IMG/VR virus record: IMGVR_UViG_3300026457_000152
Span: 1 to 20,120 of that record
From: a virus
Direction: 5' to 3' (one strand)
DNA length: 20,120 nucleotides
Of this stretch, positions 2,925-19,970 are shown piece after piece (positions within the stretch are counted from its first letter, which is position 1; every line of letters begins with the position of its first letter). A program made the translations under genes and the position numbers. The notes below the pieces were generated by a model, which did not search any database, was not told where the DNA came from, and worked only from the letters and a program-made list of their open reading frames with translations.

Positions 2925-3608
2925 ATGGCTACAGAAGTATATGGTAAAGATAATATATTTTTGATTGACGGTAGAGAGTTAGAAATAATTCCTCTTAAGA
3001 TTAAATATCTAAGAGAATTTATGTTAGAGTTTCAGTCAATGAAAAATGCAACAAATGATGATGAGGCTATAGAAGTCTTAACTAAGTGTGCCTGTATTTG
3101 TATGAAACAATACTATCCTGAAATAGCAAAAAATGCAGATGACTATTTAGATCTTCCTACTGTTTATAAAATTATTGATATTGCTGCTGGTATTAAAATA
3201 AATAAAGAAGTTGATGATTCTGTTAAAGATCAAGCCATACAAAAAGGATCTACCTGGCAAGAGTTAGATTTAGCAAAGTTAGAGGCTGAAGTATTTGTGC
3301 TGGGTATTTGGAAAGATTATCAGGAACTAGAGTCTTCATTATCTATGCCAGAACTTATGGCTACTCTTGGAAGTAAAAGAGAACTAGACTATGAGGAAAG
3401 AAAATTTTTAGCAGCAATTCAGGGCATAGATTTAGATGGAGCATCTGACCCACAACGTGGTCAAAAAGAGTGGGAAGACATGAAAGCCAGGGTATTTAGT
3501 AAGGGTGCTACAAGTGATAGTAATGATGTATTAGCCTTACAAGGACAAAATGCAAAAAAATATGGTTTTGGAATTGGTATGGGATTAGATTACGAAAATT
3601 TAACGTAA
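2925..3608 (+). CDS. Long tail assembly chaperone (GT-like)
   Basis: A 227-residue protein expected to bind the tape measure and guide tube assembly; it is probably absent from the finished virion. Residues 1-93 are homologous to the whole of the next gene: both have L-x-D-G at 13-16, P-L-K-I at 23-26, L-R-x-F-M at 29-33, a conserved Cys, Q-Y-x-P-E, and LDLPTVYKI. By eye about 40% of aligned positions are identical. Residues 110-227 are an added domain with the ELESSLSMPELMATLGSKRE and ERKFLAAIQGIDLDG segments, a pattern found in the extended (T-like) part of siphophage chaperones. It is therefore the counterpart of the frameshift product in other phages, but encoded as one open frame with no slippery heptamer needed. 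Codons are ordinary (4 of 6 Arg AGA) and no ribosome site is visible, suggesting low expression. Confidence 0.75.
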   Translation: MATEVYGKDNIFLIDGRELEIIPLKIKYLREFMLEFQSMKNATNDDEAIEVLTKCACICMKQYYPEIAKNADDYLDLPTVYKIIDIAAGIKINKEVDDSVKDQAIQKGSTWQELDLAKLEAEVFVLGIWKDYQELESSLSMPELMATLGSKRELDYEERKFLAAIQGIDLDGASDPQRGQKEWEDMKARVFSKGATSDSNDVLALQGQNAKKYGFGIGMGLDYENLT

Positions 3609-3629
3609 TAAGCCCTTATCTGATATAAT
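3600..3629 (+). promoter_or_regulatory. Promoter before short tail chaperone and tape measure genes
   Basis: TGATATAAT (3621-3629) is a perfect extended -10 box. TTAACG at 3600-3605 is a 4-of-6 match to a -35 box with an 18-base spacer. Initiation near 3636 gives a leader of about 19 bases that contains the AGGAGG ribosome site. The same 9-mer occurs at 18810-18818. Confidence 0.6.
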
Positions 3630-3644
3630 TAACATAACCTAATT

Positions 3645-3650
3645 AGGAGG
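3645..3650 (+). promoter_or_regulatory. Consensus ribosome binding site of short chaperone
   Basis: AGGAGG, a perfect Shine-Dalgarno core, lies 4 bases before the ATG at 3655. It contrasts with the long chaperone gene, which has no such site. Confidence 0.8.
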
Positions 3651-3654
3651 TAAA

Positions 3655-3975
3655 ATGGCAACGACTAAGCACGAAACTCAAGAACTAGTACTGATGGATG
3701 GTACAAAAATCGAAGTTCGTCCTTTAAAAATCTCTCTTCTTCGTCCTTTTATGAAGAAGTTTGAGGGTGTTGCGGCAGTGGCGGATGATAATGAAAAGTC
3801 AATGACTCTTCTTATTGAATGTGTAAAAATCGCTATGGAACAGTATAAGCCAGAATTGGCAGATACTGCAAAACTAGAAGAGGTTCTAGATTTGCCAACT
3901 GTCTATAAGATCGTAGAGGCTGCATCAGGTGTAACACTTGCTACAGTCGCTGACGCTCTTTCAGCAACAGAATAA
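3655..3975 (+). CDS. Short tail assembly chaperone (G-like)
   Basis: A 106-residue protein that is a paralogue of the first 93 residues of the upstream gene, sharing L-x-D-G, PLKI, LRxFM, QYxPE and LDLPTVYKI at corresponding positions with only 1-2 residue gaps. It stops shortly after the shared domain (A-S-G-V-T-L), as the non-frameshifted gpG-type chaperone does. Only 24 bases separate its stop from the tape measure ATG, so there is no room for a downstream T frame, and no slippery heptamer is seen near the stop. It has its own promoter, a consensus AGGAGG and better codons (both Arg CGT, more C-ending codons), all pointing to much higher expression than the long form. Its role is presumably to coat the tape measure in excess over the long chaperone. 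Confidence 0.75.
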   Translation: MATTKHETQELVLMDGTKIEVRPLKISLLRPFMKKFEGVAAVADDNEKSMTLLIECVKIAMEQYKPELADTAKLEEVLDLPTVYKIVEAASGVTLATVADALSATE

Positions 3976-3999
3976 AACTTAAGAACGAGGTGTAAATAA

Positions 4000-6900
4000 A
4001 TGGCTGACGTTAATGCTAATATTGGCGTTAATATTGATACGACGCAAGCATTAGCGCAACTTAAGTCGTTACAACGTCAGATATCTCAATTTCACAGTTC
4101 TATTGCAAAAAGCAGTGAAACTGCTGCATTAGCACAGCGGGATCTGCAGAGAAACTTCATCAATAGTGTAAATTCTCTTGGTGCCTTCTCTGCAGAACTC
4201 CGTACTGTTAAAACTACTTCGGAGTCATTTACTGATTCATTAGAAAAAAATAAGTTTTCAATGCGTGAATACTTCCGCTATGCGGGAGGCGCAACAAAAA
4301 CATTTGGCAAATTATTCAGGTCTGAATTTGACACAATCGGCAAGGTAGCCGAAGATCGTGTTAAGAAACTACAAACACAATACATTAAACTAGGTCGTGA
4401 TACTACTGGTGCGATGAAGGCTATCGCAGTAATTCCAAACGAATTAGATATGAAGAATTGGTCTACACAGACCCAAATTGCAGCACAAAGACAGGCTTTA
4501 TTTAATCAGTTAGTCAGACAAGGATCTACAAATCTTCTAAACTTTGGTAAGAATACGCAATGGGCTGGTCGCCAGTTGATGGTTGGTTTTACTTTACCTC
4601 TTGCTACTTTGGGAACAACTGCTGCAAGAACATTTATGGAAATGGAAGCAGCAGCACTTAAGTTTAGAAAAGTATATGGAGATTTATTTACACCAAAAGC
4701 AGAAACACAACAAGCGCTTGCTGATATTACTGCCCTTGGGGAAATGTTTACAAAATATGGAATTGCTGTATCTGATACTGTTGGTTTAGCAGCAGAAGCA
4801 GCAGCAGCAGGTTTCCAGGGTATAGATTTACAGCGACAGACTACACAAGCAACACGACTTTCTGTTCTTGGTCAAATTGAAAACCAGAAGGCTCTTGAGA
4901 CTACAATTTCTTTGCAAAATGCATTTAAAATGTCGTCTGAAGATCTTGCTGGATCCATTGACTTTCTTAACGCAGTAGAAAACCAAACAGTCGTATCTCT
5001 TGATGATATTACAACTGCTATTCCTAAAGTTGCTCCAGTTATTCAACAACTTGGCGGAGATGTAAAAGATTTAGCATTCTTTATGGCAGCCATGAAAGAA
5101 GGCGGTGTTAATGCATCAGAAGGTGCAAACGCACTCAAGTCTGGTCTTGCATCTCTTATTAATCCAACTGAAAAAGCAGCAGAAATGCTTGCAAGTATGG
5201 GTATTAATATTAAAAAAATTGTTGAGGCAAATAAGGGAGATCTTAAAGGAACAGTAATTGCTTTTGCACAGGCTCTAGACACACTTGATCCATTAACTCG
5301 TGCTCGTGCTATTGAACAGTTATTTGGTAAATTCCAGTTTGCTCGTCTATCTACTTTGTTTGATAATGTTACAAATCAGACTGGTCAGGCTGCTCGTGTA
5401 CTTGATTTAGCAGGTACATCAATTGAAGATCTTGCTGCACTATCTGAGTCAGAATTAGGAATGACTGCTGACTCTGCTATGAATAAATTCCGTAAGTCTG
5501 TAGAAGACTTAAAAATGTCTTTGATTCCAGTTGGTCAAACATTTTTAGAAGCAGTCACACCAATTGTAGAATTTATTGGTGGCATATTAGAGAAGTTTAA
5601 CAACCTTTCATCTGGAGTAAAGAAAGCAATTGTAGTACTAACAGTTGCTATTGGTGCTATTGGTCCAGTTGCACTTATGACATTTGGTTTGCTTGCAAAC
5701 GGACTTGCAAACATTGTCAAGGGTGCAATGATTCTTCGTAATGGATATTTAAGATTAACTGGTCAAACACAAATACTTGGAGAACAAACAGATTATTTGA
5801 CAATGGAGCAGGTTAACGCTGCTGCTGCTTCACACTCCCTTGATCAGTCACACGCAAGACTAACACAAACATTTACCGCTGAAGTTGGAGCAATTAATCA
5901 ATTAATCCAGGCTTATCGTGCTGCTGCAAATGCTGGGGCACAGTTTGCAATGCAAAATCCTGGAATGATGATACCACCAAGGAAATATAATAATGGTATA
6001 ACAGTAGTTCCTGGAAGTGGCAATAGGGATACAGTTCCCGCAATGCTTACTCCTGGAGAAGCAATTATTCCAAAAGATAGAGCAAAACAATATGCACCAC
6101 TAATTCAAGGAATGATTGCTGGAAATATTCCAGGATTTATGGCAGGTACTGTTAGTGTTGGTGGAAGTTCAACAGGATTAGACTTTGCTAGACGAGATAC
6201 TGCTGCTAAAGCACAAAAACTTATTGATGCAATGCTTGCAGAGGGTATGGGTATTGAAAATGCATTAGAAATTGTTCAAGAAACTTTATCAAGAATGGCA
6301 AATGATACTAAGATTAGTATTGGATCATTTACCAGAGAACTAGACCTTGTTACAAAAGAATTAACTGGATCTGTTATTCCAAAAGAAGTATTTCTTGCTG
6401 CTGGCAGAGGAGAAAGAAAGTTTAGTGCTGGACAAACTAATGTTGGCACAATGGAGCAGCAAGTAGCAGGAAATGCTGCTCTAGAAGAAGAATTAGTTAG
6501 AGCAAAAGAATCTAGCCGTGTAGCACAAGAAGCAATTCGTGAATACTATACAGAACTTGGTATAGATTTAACAAAAACAGATAAGAAAACACAAAATGTT
6601 TTAAATGCTATTGCTCAGTCTGGAGAAGTTCATAGAGCACATGTTATTGAAATGCAAGATAATATTGATAAAATGTTTGATGAAGCATGGGATCCAAATG
6701 CTTGGATTGCACAATCATCAACTTTAAATCAAGTAAGCAATATTCTAGATTCTTCAACATCTACTCGCAATGAATATTTAAAAAATCTTGAAGAGATAAA
6801 TGCTGATGAAACAATTGTTAAATCTATTAGAGAAAAAATTACTAATAATATCGCTTTAACTGAACAAGAATTAATGGTTCAAAAACAAGTCCTTGAGCGT

Positions 6901-9900
6901 ATGCTTTCATCAACAGACTCAATGGCAAAACTATCTACATCATTTATTCCACAGGCAAAGGGAGCCATTGCTGCTACAGATTATTTAATGCAAAATCCTG
7001 CACAACAGGCTGGTGTTGGATATAGAACAGAACAGCAAAGACAAACTGCTAGACAAACGCTTACACAGGCAAGATTTAGAGGTCAGCAGTCATTTGCTCC
7101 AGTTACAGCAGCAGCGCAAGATATTGTAAATCAAACAGTAATGGCAACAGCGCAGGCTGCACAAACACAATCTCCATCTAAGAGAACTATTCCAATTGGA
7201 GAAGATATTGCTCGTGGTCTTTCTGTTGGAATGATGAATCAGGCTGACGATGTTGCAATGGCTGCAGGAGCAGTTACACAGGGTGCAGTTACACAAATGA
7301 GAGACACTGGTCTCTTGGGTCCAGGAGGCAAACCACTTCGTGTACCAGTTACACCAAGTGCCCCAATATCTAACGTAACGCAAGGTTCTGCTATTAATCA
7401 AGAAACAAAGAAGGCAATTGAAGGGGAAATAGCAGCACGTAAAACAATGCAACAGCGTATGGACTCAATGAATAGAGTTCTTATGACTGGAACATTTGCT
7501 CTAACAAGTCTTGCAGGTGCTGGATCAATGGCTGGCGGTAAACTTGGAGAATTATCTCAAGCAGTATTTAAATACTCTGGTCTACTATTTGCATTAATGT
7601 CTGTAACCCAACTACTAACACAGCAAAAAATATTAGAATTGGCTGCTACTAGAGCAGCAACAGCAGGTCTTCTTGTTCAAAATATTAGTACAAAGAAGTT
7701 TAGTATGGTTCCAGGATTATTTGCTGGTGGACTTAAAAAAATTATTCCTAACCTATTAAGATTTGGCGGTATTATTGCAAGATTCTTAGGTCCAATAGGT
7801 ATAGGAATTACAGTAGTTACTGGTTTATATGCTATTGTAAAGAAACTTAATGCTGAAAAAGAAAAGGAAAGATTAGCAACATATGGTCTTTCTGAGGCTA
7901 TGCGTGTTACTGCAGAACAGGCAAAAACTCTTGGAGATTTCTTTGGAGTAGTTGCTGGAAGGTCTGCCTTTGAATCTCGTGCAGATTTACGTAATCGTGA
8001 AGTTGTAGGAGCACAAACTAGATCTGAGCGTGATAGATTAAGACAGGATGAAGGATTCCAAAAAGAGTTTAAAACTCAAATTGAATCATTTAGAACTGCA
8101 AGCAATGAAGAAGCAAAACTTGCATTTCAGTCTCTTGCTATAGATTTACAGTCTAGGGGATTTGCAAAAGAACAAGTTCAAACAATTATCGATGCTCTAC
8201 GTGAAGAGTCTGGTCAAACTGATATAAAGATTGATGTTAAATCTCTTAAGTTTGATGAGGCTGGACTTAAGGAAATGGGCACTGCTTTAGATGCCAACCT
8301 AAAAGTATTTCAGGATAAATATAAAAAGGGATTTGATAAAGTATTTACATATGCCCCATCTGCATCAGGTGGCATAGAATTAGTAGAAAAACTAGTTCCT
8401 ACAAAAGAATTAGAAAGACAAACGGCAAACCTATCATCATTTATAGCAACTACAAGCAAGTCTGCAGCAACTATGTTTGAATCTGGAATTATTACTGGAG
8501 AACAGTATCAAAATATGTTAAGTTCAGTAAATCAAAGAATTTATAGTCTTGATGCAGCACAAAGACAACTTATTTTGACTAAAGTCTTTAAAGAGTTAAA
8601 TGTTGATGCAGGAGCATTTTTAAAGAATCTTTATTCTGCTAAACAACAGATGATGGCTCTAGCACTCATTAGCGCTGGTTTATTAGATAAAGAAAGTGGA
8701 ATATTAAAGGCTTTATCTTCTAATGATTCTAAAACTAGATCTAGAGGTATTTTACAATTAACTAAATTATATGATAAATATTTTGAATCAGTTAATAAAG
8801 TAACAGAAGCAGAAAAGAAAAACAAAGAAGGACAGGGCACTGGCACTGGTGAAAAATCTCCATTCCAAAAGGCTCTTGAAGCACTACAAGGACAAAACGA
8901 AGAACTTTGGGCACAAGCAAAAGCATTTAATATTCTTAAAAAAGCAGGATTTGATGCAGCCACAGCACTAAAGTATGCAAGCGATTCAACTGTTGCGCTT
9001 GGAATTGCTACTGGAAATATTAAACCAGAGAACCTAGAAAAACTTACAAAACTTATGGAGCAGATTGAAAAGAAATCTAAGGCTGCAGCCATTACAGAGT
9101 TCTTTACAAAGATCAATACTGAAAATAAACTAAATGAAAGTTTTGCAAAAGCAATACCACAATTAACAGCCATGGGTGCAAAAATAGAAGATATTAATAC
9201 TATCCTAGACAATCCTGACTTAATGACATACTTAACAGAAGGTCTTAAAGATGGTAAGGTAGATGCTGAAAAGGTAAAGAAACTTCTTGATTCATTTAGA
9301 CAAGAAAAGGCTATTAAGATTCAAATTCAAATGGCTACCCCTGAAGGCAGACGTGATTTCTTTGATAATCTTCAAAACAAGGCTGAACAGTATTTTAGTA
9401 TTCTTGAAGAAGAAATTAATGATAGATATGAAGATGCTATTCGTGTTGAAGAAACAGCAATTAATGGTATTGAGCGTTCAATTCAAGCAGCACAAAAAGA
9501 AATTGATGGATATCAACGTAGCATTGATTTAGCACAAAGATCAATTGAGTTAGAACTAACAAGACCAATTGAAGCATTGCAAGAAGAAGTTAATGATGCT
9601 GCAAGAGAAATTGAAATGCAATTTACTCGTCCAATTGAAGATATTCAAAAGACAATTGATGACCTACAGCGTGGAATTGAAGTTGATTTTGAACGTCCTA
9701 TAGCAGCACTTCAAGAAGAGTCTTCAGATCTTGCTAATGAAATGACCTTGATGGATAAGGTTGCTGAAGGAATTAATCAAAAGTATGATGCTCAGGCTGA
9801 GGCACTTAATAAAGTATCTGAAATTAATCAGCAAATTATTGCACAACAAAAACAACAAATTGGTCTTGCAGATGCTTTAACACAAGGTGATATTTCTGCA

Positions 9901-11247
9901 GCAGCACAGGCTGCACAAGAAATGAGGGCACAGTCAGCAGAGGCTGCTTCACAACGTGCTAGTGGAGTATTAGATGCAGCACGTCAAGCAGAACTAGGCG
10001 GATTACGTACAGCAGGTGGTCTGACAAGAGAACAAGTAGAAGCAAGACAGTTCCAGATTAGTCAACAAGTTTTTGCCCTAGAAGAGCAGCGTGAAGCGGT
10101 ACAAGCAAGAATGCTTATTAAGCAAGATCAAATTTATCAATTAGAGCAAGCCAGGGCATTAAAGCAGGAAGAAATACGCATTAAAGAAGATCAAATTTAT
10201 GCTCTTGAAGAGCAGCGTGAAGCAAGACTTTTGAGTATTAGAAATACAGAAGATTTAATATATAATATTCAAAATAATCAAATTTATAATCTTGAACAAC
10301 AAAAACTTGTACATGAGGCTAATCTTCAAAAAATTAACGACCAGAAGGCTGCTGAAATGGAAAAGATTAGAGTTCAGCGTGAGGCTTGGTCAGATGCACA
10401 ACGTGCCCTTGATTTAGAAAAAATTAAACAGGGTGAATTTAATGATGTGATTACAATGACAAATGATTTATTAGTTGGTACTGCTGGAAAAATTGATACT
10501 ATTATTTCTAAGATTCAGGCTGCTATTCAGGCTGCTATGCAACTTGCCGCTGCTCTTGCTTCTACAGGGGGCGGAGGAGGCGGAGGTGGTGGCGGTGGTG
10601 GAAACGTAACTGGTTCATTCAGTACACAGCAACAATCTATTATAAATACAGCAGCAAGTAAGGCATCAACGCAAGCAGCAAAAGGCAACGTAATGGGTTC
10701 TGGAGGATCTGAAGCAATTGCGGTTCAAGCAATGAAAGATTTAGCAGCAAAACAAACTGTTGATGCAAATCCAAAAATACCTGGTACTCAATTAAGTTCT
10801 ACACAGGTAGTTGCTGCTAGAAAGCAAATACTAGGATATTTAAGTTCTGGTGGAATGGTTCCTAGATATTTCCCTAATGGAGGTTTTGTAGCAAAAGGTT
10901 CAGATACAGTCCCAGCAATGCTTACTCCTGGAGAATTTGTAGTTAATAAAAATAGTGCAAAGGCTTTTCGTCCATTTTTAAGGTCAATTAATGATGCTGT
11001 TTATCCATCAATGATTAAGGATAAAATGAATCAGCCAGTTTATGCAGTTTCTAATCCTGTAAATATTTCTTCTATGCCTACCGCCACAGTAGTTGCCCCT
11101 GTATCAGATAACTCAAGCACAGTGTATAATTATAATGTTGGTATTACAGTTGGCGGTACAAACTCTAATCCAAATGGAATTGCAAGAGCAGTAATAAATG
11201 AAATTAAATATATTGATTCACAAAGAATTAGGAGTCAGAGAGCATAA
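4000..11247 (+). CDS. Tape measure protein
   Basis: A 2415-residue protein that sets tail length and is ejected during DNA entry. Residues about 188-456 (from WAGRQLMVGFTLPLATLG to the ARLSTLFDNV region) match the TP901-type phage minor tail/tape measure domain. Hydrophobic segments lie near 543-577 (IVVLTVAIGAIGPVALMTF) and 1248-1280 (GIIARFLGPIGIGITVVTGL), typical of the membrane-active parts of such proteins. Long coiled coils fill about 1790-2140, with internal 22- and 21-residue repeats. A run of 12 glycines (2190-2201) is a flexible linker. The DTVPAMLTPGE motif, common in tape measures, occurs twice (677 and 2302). No peptidoglycan hydrolase domain was recognised. The start has GAGGTG 7 bases upstream. 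At the usual 0.15 nm per residue the tail would be about 360 nm. Confidence 0.93.
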   Translation: MADVNANIGVNIDTTQALAQLKSLQRQISQFHSSIAKSSETAALAQRDLQRNFINSVNSLGAFSAELRTVKTTSESFTDSLEKNKFSMREYFRYAGGATKTFGKLFRSEFDTIGKVAEDRVKKLQTQYIKLGRDTTGAMKAIAVIPNELDMKNWSTQTQIAAQRQALFNQLVRQGSTNLLNFGKNTQWAGRQLMVGFTLPLATLGTTAARTFMEMEAAALKFRKVYGDLFTPKAETQQALADITALGEMFTKYGIAVSDTVGLAAEAAAAGFQGIDLQRQTTQATRLSVLGQIENQKALETTISLQNAFKMSSEDLAGSIDFLNAVENQTVVSLDDITTAIPKVAPVIQQLGGDVKDLAFFMAAMKEGGVNASEGANALKSGLASLINPTEKAAEMLASMGINIKKIVEANKGDLKGTVIAFAQALDTLDPLTRARAIEQLFGKFQFARLSTLFDNVTNQTGQAARVLDLAGTSIEDLAALSESELGMTADSAMNKFRKSVEDLKMSLIPVGQTFLEAVTPIVEFIGGILEKFNNLSSGVKKAIVVLTVAIGAIGPVALMTFGLLANGLANIVKGAMILRNGYLRLTGQTQILGEQTDYLTMEQVNAAAASHSLDQSHARLTQTFTAEVGAINQLIQAYRAAANAGAQFAMQNPGMMIPPRKYNNGITVVPGSGNRDTVPAMLTPGEAIIPKDRAKQYAPLIQGMIAGNIPGFMAGTVSVGGSSTGLDFARRDTAAKAQKLIDAMLAEGMGIENALEIVQETLSRMANDTKISIGSFTRELDLVTKELTGSVIPKEVFLAAGRGERKFSAGQTNVGTMEQQVAGNAALEEELVRAKESSRVAQEAIREYYTELGIDLTKTDKKTQNVLNAIAQSGEVHRAHVIEMQDNIDKMFDEAWDPNAWIAQSSTLNQVSNILDSSTSTRNEYLKNLEEINADETIVKSIREKITNNIALTEQELMVQKQVLERMLSSTDSMAKLSTSFIPQAKGAIAATDYLMQNPAQQAGVGYRTEQQRQTARQTLTQARFRGQQSFAPVTAAAQDIVNQTVMATAQAAQTQSPSKRTIPIGEDIARGLSVGMMNQADDVAMAAGAVTQGAVTQMRDTGLLGPGGKPLRVPVTPSAPISNVTQGSAINQETKKAIEGEIAARKTMQQRMDSMNRVLMTGTFALTSLAGAGSMAGGKLGELSQAVFKYSGLLFALMSVTQLLTQQKILELAATRAATAGLLVQNISTKKFSMVPGLFAGGLKKIIPNLLRFGGIIARFLGPIGIGITVVTGLYAIVKKLNAEKEKERLATYGLSEAMRVTAEQAKTLGDFFGVVAGRSAFESRADLRNREVVGAQTRSERDRLRQDEGFQKEFKTQIESFRTASNEEAKLAFQSLAIDLQSRGFAKEQVQTIIDALREESGQTDIKIDVKSLKFDEAGLKEMGTALDANLKVFQDKYKKGFDKVFTYAPSASGGIELVEKLVPTKELERQTANLSSFIATTSKSAATMFESGIITGEQYQNMLSSVNQRIYSLDAAQRQLILTKVFKELNVDAGAFLKNLYSAKQQMMALALISAGLLDKESGILKALSSNDSKTRSRGILQLTKLYDKYFESVNKVTEAEKKNKEGQGTGTGEKSPFQKALEALQGQNEELWAQAKAFNILKKAGFDAATALKYASDSTVALGIATGNIKPENLEKLTKLMEQIEKKSKAAAITEFFTKINTENKLNESFAKAIPQLTAMGAKIEDINTILDNPDLMTYLTEGLKDGKVDAEKVKKLLDSFRQEKAIKIQIQMATPEGRRDFFDNLQNKAEQYFSILEEEINDRYEDAIRVEETAINGIERSIQAAQKEIDGYQRSIDLAQRSIELELTRPIEALQEEVNDAAREIEMQFTRPIEDIQKTIDDLQRGIEVDFERPIAALQEESSDLANEMTLMDKVAEGINQKYDAQAEALNKVSEINQQIIAQQKQQIGLADALTQGDISAAAQAAQEMRAQSAEAASQRASGVLDAARQAELGGLRTAGGLTREQVEARQFQISQQVFALEEQREAVQARMLIKQDQIYQLEQARALKQEEIRIKEDQIYALEEQREARLLSIRNTEDLIYNIQNNQIYNLEQQKLVHEANLQKINDQKAAEMEKIRVQREAWSDAQRALDLEKIKQGEFNDVITMTNDLLVGTAGKIDTIISKIQAAIQAAMQLAAALASTGGGGGGGGGGGGNVTGSFSTQQQSIINTAASKASTQAAKGNVMGSGGSEAIAVQAMKDLAAKQTVDANPKIPGTQLSSTQVVAARKQILGYLSSGGMVPRYFPNGGFVAKGSDTVPAMLTPGEFVVNKNSAKAFRPFLRSINDAVYPSMIKDKMNQPVYAVSNPVNISSMPTATVVAPVSDNSSTVYNYNVGITVGGTNSNPNGIARAVINEIKYIDSQRIRSQRA
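6028..6060 (+). repeat. First copy of tape-measure DTVPAMLTPGE motif
   Basis: Codes for DTVPAMLTPGE (residues 677-687), preceded by PGSGNR and followed by AIIPKDRAKQY. The second copy is at 10903-10935; the two DNA segments differ only at a few positions. This motif recurs in tape measure proteins of many siphophages; its role is not established. Confidence 0.85.
9496..9720 (+). repeat. Tape-measure 22-residue coiled-coil repeat
   Basis: Three in-frame 22-residue units carry R-P-I at residues 1855, 1877 and 1899, each with a second basic-x-Ile site 14 residues earlier or 8 later (K1833, R1847, R1869, R1891). The spacing therefore alternates 14 and 8. This equals two 11-residue hendecads per unit rather than pure heptads. 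The segment is highly charged and free of helix breakers other than the conserved Pro. Confidence 0.8.
10126..10287 (+). repeat. Tape-measure 21-residue coiled-coil repeat
   Basis: D-Q/L-I-Y motifs start at residues 2043, 2064 and 2085, exactly 21 residues (three heptads) apart, with a further NQIY at 2093. At DNA level a 14-base stretch (AAGATCAAATTTAT) recurs at 10124 and 10187, and a 17-base stretch (GAAGAGCAGCGTGAAGC) at 10081 and 10207. Recent internal duplication is likely. Confidence 0.8.
10567..10602 (+). repeat. Poly-glycine linker in tape measure gene
   Basis: Twelve consecutive Gly codons, residues 2190-2201, written with all four GGN codons mixed. This makes a local GC-rich island in an AT-rich gene. 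It separates the coiled-coil body from the C-terminal part carrying the second PAMLTPGE motif. Confidence 0.9.
10903..10935 (+). repeat. Second copy of tape-measure DTVPAMLTPGE motif
   Basis: Codes for DTVPAMLTPGE (residues 2302-2312), preceded by NGGFVAKGS and followed by FVVNKNSAKAF. This is the usual C-terminal position of the motif in tape measure proteins; the copy at residues 677-687 is the unexpected one. Confidence 0.85.
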
Positions 11248-18809: not shown

Positions 18810-18818
18810 TGATATAAT
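18810..18818 (+). promoter_or_regulatory. Extended -10 promoter-like element TGATATAAT
   Basis: Perfect extended -10, identical to the 9-mer at 3621-3629, located immediately after the stop of the preceding gene. Its last base is 10 bases before the ATG at 18828, so an mRNA started here would have a leader of about 0-4 bases and lack the GGAG at 18819-18822. No good -35 was found. AT-richness makes chance occurrence possible. Confidence 0.45.
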
Positions 18819-18827
18819 GGAGAGATA

Positions 18828-19271
18828 ATGGCAAAAGTACCACTACCAGAACGAGGTCAACCGTTAGATGTTACATACATTTATCAGTTGGCAGATACAA
18901 TTAATGATATTTCTACGCAGGTTTCATCTGCAACCTACAACTATACTACTGTAGATACTGTTTCTGCAGGTAAGCAGAGTGTAAAAACATCAGAGGCTAG
19001 AGTAGTTGGTGGGTATGTTGAAGTAGCAAATAACTCAACAGTTAGCGCAGGAAACGAAAAGACATTTTCATATGACTTCCCATCTGATTTTAAATATGCA
19101 CCAATAGCATCTGCTACTGCAGTTAATATTGGAAATACTCCAGCAGGACAAAATGTAAATGTTATTTTAAAATCTGTTACTACATCAAGAGTAGAAGGAG
19201 TGGTTAGGTTTGGAGCGTCAGGAGATCTGTCCTTGGCTGTTCACCTAATTATTATTGGAATTCCAAACTAA
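18828..19271 (+). CDS. Small tail-tip / receptor-binding-type protein
   Basis: A 147-residue protein. Residues 1-33 (VPLPERGQPLDVTYIYQLAD, then TINDISTQV) form a short N-terminal helix of the kind used for trimerisation or tail attachment. Residues 60-147 are beta-rich, with FSYDFPSDFKYAPIASATAV and a final segment (EGVVRFGASGDLSLAVHLII) resembling H-type-lectin-like tip domains of phage fibres. It could be the receptor-binding knob, or a small structural subunit. GGAG (18819-18822) lies 5 bases before the ATG and works if the message reads through from upstream. The promoter-like box at 18810 would give an almost leaderless message. It is the last recognisable structural gene of the block. 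Confidence 0.45.
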   Translation: MAKVPLPERGQPLDVTYIYQLADTINDISTQVSSATYNYTTVDTVSAGKQSVKTSEARVVGGYVEVANNSTVSAGNEKTFSYDFPSDFKYAPIASATAVNIGNTPAGQNVNVILKSVTTSRVEGVVRFGASGDLSLAVHLIIIGIPN

Positions 19272-19278
19272 AAGGGGA
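19271..19278 (+). promoter_or_regulatory. Ribosome binding site deciding zinc-ribbon gene start
   Basis: AAAGGGGA lies 9 bases before the ATG at 19288. The alternative in-frame ATG at 19255 has no such site and would overlap the preceding gene by 17 bases, so 19288 is preferred. Confidence 0.55.
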
Positions 19279-19287
19279 ATTGGGTAC

Positions 19288-19479
19288 ATGATCCATTGCA
19301 GACGCTGCAAAGGTAGAATGTTTGTTGATAGACAATATTCTAGCCAAATACACTTAGAGACCTATTGCATCCGTTGTGGATCTAGAAATTTTTATCATCC
19401 ACCTTCAGATAGCAAGGAGGGAAAATGGCTTTTGGACCAAGAAAACTTGAGAGCAAAGACTACAATAGTCAGCCTATAA
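19288..19479 (+). CDS. Small zinc-ribbon protein
   Basis: A 63-residue protein with two CxxC knuckles, C4-x2-C7 and C27-x2-C30, 19 residues apart, the layout of a zinc ribbon that holds one structural zinc ion. The region is basic (CRRCKGRM, CIRCGSR), consistent with contact to nucleic acid or RNA polymerase. The last 18 codons overlap the next gene in another frame (55 bases, 19425-19479), and the strong ribosome site of that gene lies inside this one, so the two are probably made together. The function is not known. Zinc ribbons of this size in phages include transcription regulators and polymerase-binding proteins, but nothing here separates those options. Confidence 0.65.
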   Translation: MIHCRRCKGRMFVDRQYSSQIHLETYCIRCGSRNFYHPPSDSKEGKWLLDQENLRAKTTIVSL

Positions 19480-19970
19480 TTAAAGGTAACCAAAAAATTT
19501 GGTTTTTAAATAATGATTTAGTTAGACTATATCATAGTTCTAGATCAACTGGTATGGTTACATTTTACAATATTACAAAAGATAGACTAGAAACTTGTTT
19601 TCGTAATGACTTCAGAAAAAATAGACAAAGGGCATATACTGTAGCAGAAACTGCAAGACTTGTCAATAGGCATCGTAAATATATTCCATATCTAATTAAA
19701 CGTGGAGTTATTCCGCCTCCAATAGGAGCACAGGTTGGCGGTACAAGAGATTGGCAAGTAAGAGCGTACTACTCTGAATCGCAATTAAAAGAGATACGTG
19801 ATATACTTGCAAGCATACATATTGGTAGACCAAGAAAAGATAATTTAATAACAAACAATATGACTCCTACATCTCAGGAGTTGACACGAAGAACTGGCGA
19901 TGGTATACTGGTTTATACAAAAACTGAAGATGGTAGATTTATTCCTGTTTGGGGAGAGAGCATTAATTAG
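19425..19970 (+). CDS. MerR-like helix-turn-helix DNA-binding protein
   Basis: A 181-residue basic protein. Residues 70-97 (AYTVAETARLVNRHRKYIPY, then LIKRGVIPPP) fit a MerR/excisionase-type winged helix-turn-helix: first helix VAETARLV, recognition helix RHRKYIPYLIKRG. A wing (GGTRDWQVRAY) and a helix YSESQLKEIRDIL follow. Residues 134-138 (GRPRK) resemble an AT-hook core. Residues 25-60 form a separate conserved-looking N-terminal part (KIWFLNNDLVRLYHSSR). The ATG has AAGGAGGG upstream inside the zinc-ribbon gene. No effector-binding domain of classical MerR proteins is present. It probably binds phage DNA as a regulator; an excisionase-like or architectural role is possible. Confidence 0.7.
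   Translation: MAFGPRKLESKDYNSQPIIKGNQKIWFLNNDLVRLYHSSRSTGMVTFYNITKDRLETCFRNDFRKNRQRAYTVAETARLVNRHRKYIPYLIKRGVIPPPIGAQVGGTRDWQVRAYYSESQLKEIRDILASIHIGRPRKDNLITNNMTPTSQELTRRTGDGILVYTKTEDGRFIPVWGESIN

Follow-up and report, generated by a model that had tools for sequence, protein, structure and literature searches.

Probable replacement of programmed frameshifting by gene duplication and fusion in the tail assembly chaperones of a Stanwilliamsviridae-related freshwater phage

In nearly all long-tailed phages, ribosome slippage on one gene yields two forms of the tail assembly chaperone (TAC), a short one that is common and a long one that is rare. This G/GT frameshift ranks among the best-conserved recoding events of phages and is usually attributed to a requirement for a fixed ratio of the two forms. 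The stretch of viral DNA analyzed here (20,120 nucleotides of IMG/VR record IMGVR_UViG_3300026457_000152; in the following, the window) raises the question of how both forms are obtained by a phage that carries two complete chaperone genes in a row. The explanation regarded as probable as a whole is that duplication and fusion replaced recoding, and that the GT:G ratio would now be set by the strengths of the promoters and translation starts, as the upstream sequences of the two genes suggest.

Both reading frames were found where a first-pass annotation had placed them, on the plus strand like all locus features described below. Gene 1 (2925–3608) encodes the fused long chaperone (GT) of 227 amino acids, which is composed of a G domain (approximately residues 1–100), a linker, and a T domain (approximately residues 108–227). 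Gene 2 (3655–3975) encodes a short chaperone of 106 amino acids (G, also referred to as G2) that comprises the G domain only; it indeed ends after the shared domain, exactly 24 bases (3976–3999) before the ATG of the tape measure gene. The pair is located between the genes of the major tail protein and the tape measure protein in the window and likewise in the annotated relatives. The former gene (2219–2854) matches phrog_2175 (E = 7e-33) and phrog_885, "major tail protein" (E = 0.0065), and is syntenic with an annotated Stanwilliamsviridae gene, and the latter (4000–11247), which encodes the client of the chaperones, has the same position as the annotated tape measure gene of the relatives. 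The tape measure protein (2,415 residues) contains the sequence DTVPAMLTPGE twice, each time in a similar glycine-rich context.

A common domain in both proteins, with a T part in the first alone, had been proposed from inspection of the translations and was borne out by sequence comparison. The shared G domains are identical at 40 of 100 positions and similar at 64 (BLASTP, E = 3e-24), phrog_10504 matches the N-terminal parts of both proteins (E = 8e-20 for gene 1 and 2e-20 for gene 2), and phrog_10474 matches only the C-terminal part of gene 1 (E = 4e-13). These two profiles form separate families because other phages carry the two domains in different frames. In tblastn searches, the domains matched annotated TACs of Streptomyces phages with E-values of about 1e-31. 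Other TAC PHROGs yielded several weak matches by family members (best phrog_1932, E = 0.0028), no TAC model of Pfam recognized the proteins (DUF4778 matched weakly), and searches of PDB sequences with alignments of both proteins returned chance matches only. AlphaFold models were of middling confidence (pLDDT 65 for GT and 64); the GT model had no Foldseek match in the PDB, and its fold matched the GT protein of phage N15 (probability 0.90), the frameshift chaperone EfaCPT1 (0.92), and the TAC of Arthrobacter phage Kitkat (0.90). Gene position, a short and a long form with a common N-terminal domain and T in the long form only, and kinship in sequence and fold together identify the pair as TACs of the G/GT type.

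Like gpG and gpGT of phage lambda, the pair consists of a short and an extended chaperone with a common N-terminal domain encoded before the tape measure gene, although no sequence similarity to the lambda proteins was detected. In lambda, frameshifting yields G and GT at a ratio of about 30:1; both form a coat on the tape measure protein, and the major tail protein is bound by T (PMC5009743). By analogy, many G and few GT molecules would coat the tape measure protein of the phage studied here, and T would recruit its major tail protein. The principle of one short and one fused long gene is not new, since some T4-like phages have exactly such genes and no frameshift in the account of PMC10885494, which cites Vladimirov et al. 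(2022). There, too, the long gene fuses the short and the downstream parts; compared by this description, those chaperones belong to myophages, whereas the present locus belongs to Stanwilliamsviridae-related actinophages and differs from the T4-like case as described in that frameshifting sister groups, a lost slip site, and contrasting promoter and Shine-Dalgarno (SD) signals are available for direct comparison. An earlier description of this siphophage arrangement was not found in the open literature, outside of which most subscription papers lie. The contribution of the present locus is an apparently separate siphophage case, distinguished by relatives that frameshift at this locus, by loss of the slip site, and by a conserved promoter/SD contrast.

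The homologous locus of the relatives was examined in annotated phages, all of them Stanwilliamsviridae apart from one Rhodococcus phage, and in environmental sequences. Both domains were detected by tblastn in 127 Streptomyces phage records, and five Rhodococcus phages matched in the T domain. The annotated relatives carry one overlapping −1 pair between the major tail protein and tape measure genes, which is annotated as a joined frameshift CDS in Yaboi, Patelgo, and Rhodococcus phage Dorin. Frameshift G/GT loci of the Stanwilliamsviridae (Coruscant, BillNye, Yaboi, Patelgo) and of freshwater phages thus share domains and gene order with the window, as well as the layout of terminator, extended −10 box, and SD sequence before G, but they are single loci with a −1 slip (CCCAAA[C/T] in most, or CCCGGAA in the Boydwoodruffvirinae) instead of two genes. 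The zero-frame heptamer CCCAAAC or CCCAAAT occurs at the same L-N-D-P codons in the Loccivirinae and nearly all environmental frameshift relatives, including the freshwater group close to the window, with the variants GGGAAAA in Dorin and GGGAAAC in two environmental phages (L374 and L398). In the Boydwoodruffvirinae (L162, L163, L165, L170, and L172–L180), the G/T junction lacks a standard XXXYYYZ heptamer, and a conserved C-CCG-GAA stands at those same codons where the Loccivirinae have C-CCA-AAT; this conservation suggests an unusual −1 slip site.

The tandem layout was searched for in relatives and recovered, with the fused GT gene followed by G, in 173 distinct environmental loci, each with one short and one fused long TAC gene as described for T4-like phages. 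The unusual long-first order is invariant among them, and this recurrence in many independent assemblies rules out an assembly fault or a chance arrangement. The frameshift layout was found in 62 distinct loci, and among all loci fetched none contained both layouts, the few other patterns being cuts at contig ends. After dereplication, 61 tandem loci remained, on which all following counts of heptamers and control signals in tandem loci are based. The assertion that slippery heptamers are missing held for the G/T junction, but not for the genes as a whole, since zero-frame XXXYYYZ heptamers occur elsewhere in these A + T-rich genes by chance: AAAAAAT at codon 68, AAAAAAA at codon 210, and AAATTTA at codon 224 of gene 1, and TTTAAAA at codon 23 of gene 2. 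The −1 products from all of these sites would have 2–22 residues. Could the tandem nevertheless conceal recoding, with slippage at the GT junction giving rise to an additional short product that resembles G, or with gene 2 slipping into another frame? The few chance heptamers and the rapid end of a −1 shift near the GT junction (after a median of 9 residues) would permit such a product. However, no conserved slip site of the kind that marks frameshift-expressed TACs (Xu et al. type) was found at the tandem GT junction, where any heptamer in codons 89–125 was present in only 10 of 61 loci and almost all of these differed. Moreover, gene 1 continues into T without a change of frame, and no T frame follows gene 2, in whose homologs the ancestral slip codons C-CCA-AAC are gone and the proline codon is replaced (e.g., D-P-N-A-L to D-A-N-A-L). 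Hidden recoding is therefore considered very improbable. The proposed replacement of a programmed frameshift by duplication and fusion is strongly supported by these loci, which lack the ancestral slip site and encode a fused product colinear with the Stanwilliamsviridae frameshift product, and by the −1 pair at the homologous locus of the Stanwilliamsviridae and freshwater neighbors.

Since the frameshift is found throughout the more distant relatives, it represents the ancestral state, and the comparison indicates that ancestors of this siphophage relied on −1 frameshifting for the production of G and GT. The G/T unit would then have been duplicated; the upstream copy would have become the continuous GT gene observed today, and the downstream copy would have been stripped of T and of the slip site, so that G now immediately precedes the tape measure gene. 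How early the duplication took place was examined with trees of the T domain, the tail protein, and the G domain. The two paralogs formed separate clades, N1 (N-terminal part of GT; support 92–95) and N2 (gene 2; support 99), and the freshwater frameshift G proteins grouped with gene 2 to the exclusion of the GT N-terminal part (support 98–99). In the combined and tail-protein trees, the freshwater frameshift phages were nested inside the tandem ones. Both groupings would fit a duplication that predates the split from these freshwater phages, which would later have lost GT. However, neither a single tandem clade (p-AU 0.498 and 0.219), which even had the higher likelihood in the T-domain tree, nor a clade uniting N1 and N2 (p-AU 0.266) was rejected, and the fast-evolving GT N-terminal part invites long-branch artefacts. 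Slightly less than even weight is given to the early duplication. Mean identities were 0.775 for G2, 0.769 for the frameshift G proteins, and 0.602 for the GT N-terminal part, and by this measure the latter is the diverged copy.

Leaderless initiation is common in the Actinobacteriota, the phylum in which the host is placed by the following evidence. A scan of genome contigs gave one frameshift-type relative, a 110 kb contig (L252, CAINGU010000031.1) in a metagenome-assembled genome binned as a cyanobacterium, which probably is a mis-binned phage contig. Since this match could not assign a host, WhiB genes were used instead. A WhiB gene is present on a 73.8 kb contig that is identical to the window at 7,999 of 8,000 bases compared, and also on 13 of 18 other related contigs. 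WhiB is exclusive to the Actinobacteriota (PMC10202952), and the gene content thereby marks this freshwater virus as an actinobacterial phage. E7 and F5, two isolated phages of Planktophila, were set aside as 39 kb phages that belong to a different group (PMC10202952).

The two genes have contrasting control signals. In the window, an intrinsic terminator with a 9-bp stem (AAGCCCACCC/GGTGGGCTT) and a T-rich tail lies between the major tail protein and GT genes (2878–2909), followed by the extended −10 box TGATAGAAT of a predicted leaderless promoter (2909–2917), 7 nt 5′ of the GT start codon. Gene 2 is preceded by the consensus extended −10 box TGATATAAT (3621–3629), 25 nt 5′ of its start codon, and by the SD sequence AGGAGG (3645–3650) with strong anti-SD pairing. 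A terminator before the TAC gene was detected in 59 of 61 tandem loci (5′ of GT) and 30 of 33 frameshift-type loci, compared to none in shuffled sequences. All 61 GT genes have an extended −10 box (TGnTAnnnT) 5–21 nt 5′ of the ATG, with the hexamer TAGAAT or TAAAAT in 46 loci, and a motif of this type at such distances precedes only 13 of 389 other genes of the same loci. The anti-SD duplex of GT is weak (median −2.9 kcal/mol), whereas that of G is strong in all loci (median −10.2 kcal/mol, all ≤ −6). The hexamer TATAAT is present 22–35 nt upstream of G in 60 of 61 loci, as opposed to 6 of 389 other genes. With TGnTATAAT, a short leader, and AGGAGG, the upstream region of G resembles that of the ancestral frameshift G gene, and 31 of 33 frameshift-type G genes have the motif at 22–35 nt together with a strong SD sequence.

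A −10 box located 6–9 nt before the ATG places the predicted start of transcription at the start codon, as is typical of leaderless transcripts in actinobacteria. This spacing, combined with the lack of an SD sequence, occurs before GT in 52 of 61 loci, and this sequence pattern suggests that the GT mRNA is leaderless. The feature is not universal, since in the remaining 9 loci (L114, L115, L124, L131, L133, L137, L206, L215, and L246) the box lies 14–20 nt from the ATG and a modest G-rich SD sequence is present, apparently reflecting the acquisition of a leader by a formerly leaderless GT.

According to the preferred reading, GT would be produced in small amounts from a weaker promoter of its own and a leaderless mRNA, and G abundantly from a consensus extended −10 promoter and a strong SD sequence. 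Because a terminator between GT and G was found in none of the 61 tandem loci, read-through from the GT promoter would add to G. The G:GT ratio would thus be set at initiation and not by ribosome slippage. The fixed ratio that the first-pass annotation had envisaged is plausible, and the conserved difference in promoters and ribosome-binding sites offers a concrete way to set it; that the ratio moved from frameshifting to such a paired promoter code throughout a large environmental clade is, by itself, a finely balanced proposition. The divergence of the GT N-terminal part and the separation of the paralogs into two clades would also agree with a division of labor without a set ratio, in which GT acts as a specialized initiator or as recruiter of the major tail protein, G2 forms the main coat of the tape measure protein, the diverged G part of GT has ceased to mix freely with G2, and exact dosage would be of little importance. 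This appears unlikely, since the promoter/SD asymmetry is conserved in all 61 loci, suggesting selection on relative amounts, and the G domains of both GT and G2 keep the shared motifs.

The locus offers sister groups with and without a frameshift at the same position, together with the readable control signals that would have replaced it, and allows a direct test of whether selection maintains the ratio or merely requires that the two forms both be present. If the paired promoter code is real, it governs a chaperone ratio for which ribosomal frameshifting was long considered necessary. For genome annotation, a TAC locus without a slip site may simply consist of two genes.

Further downstream in the window (18810–18828), another copy of TGATATAAT is found 9 nt from an ATG at 18828 with GGAGAG in between, and extended −10 promoters may be used more widely inside the late region of these phages. 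Near the end of the window, a small ORF of the CxxC zinc-ribbon-like type (19255–19479) overlaps a gene (19425–19970) with a helix-turn-helix match (PF12728, E = 0.003; phrog_9440, E = 2e-22).
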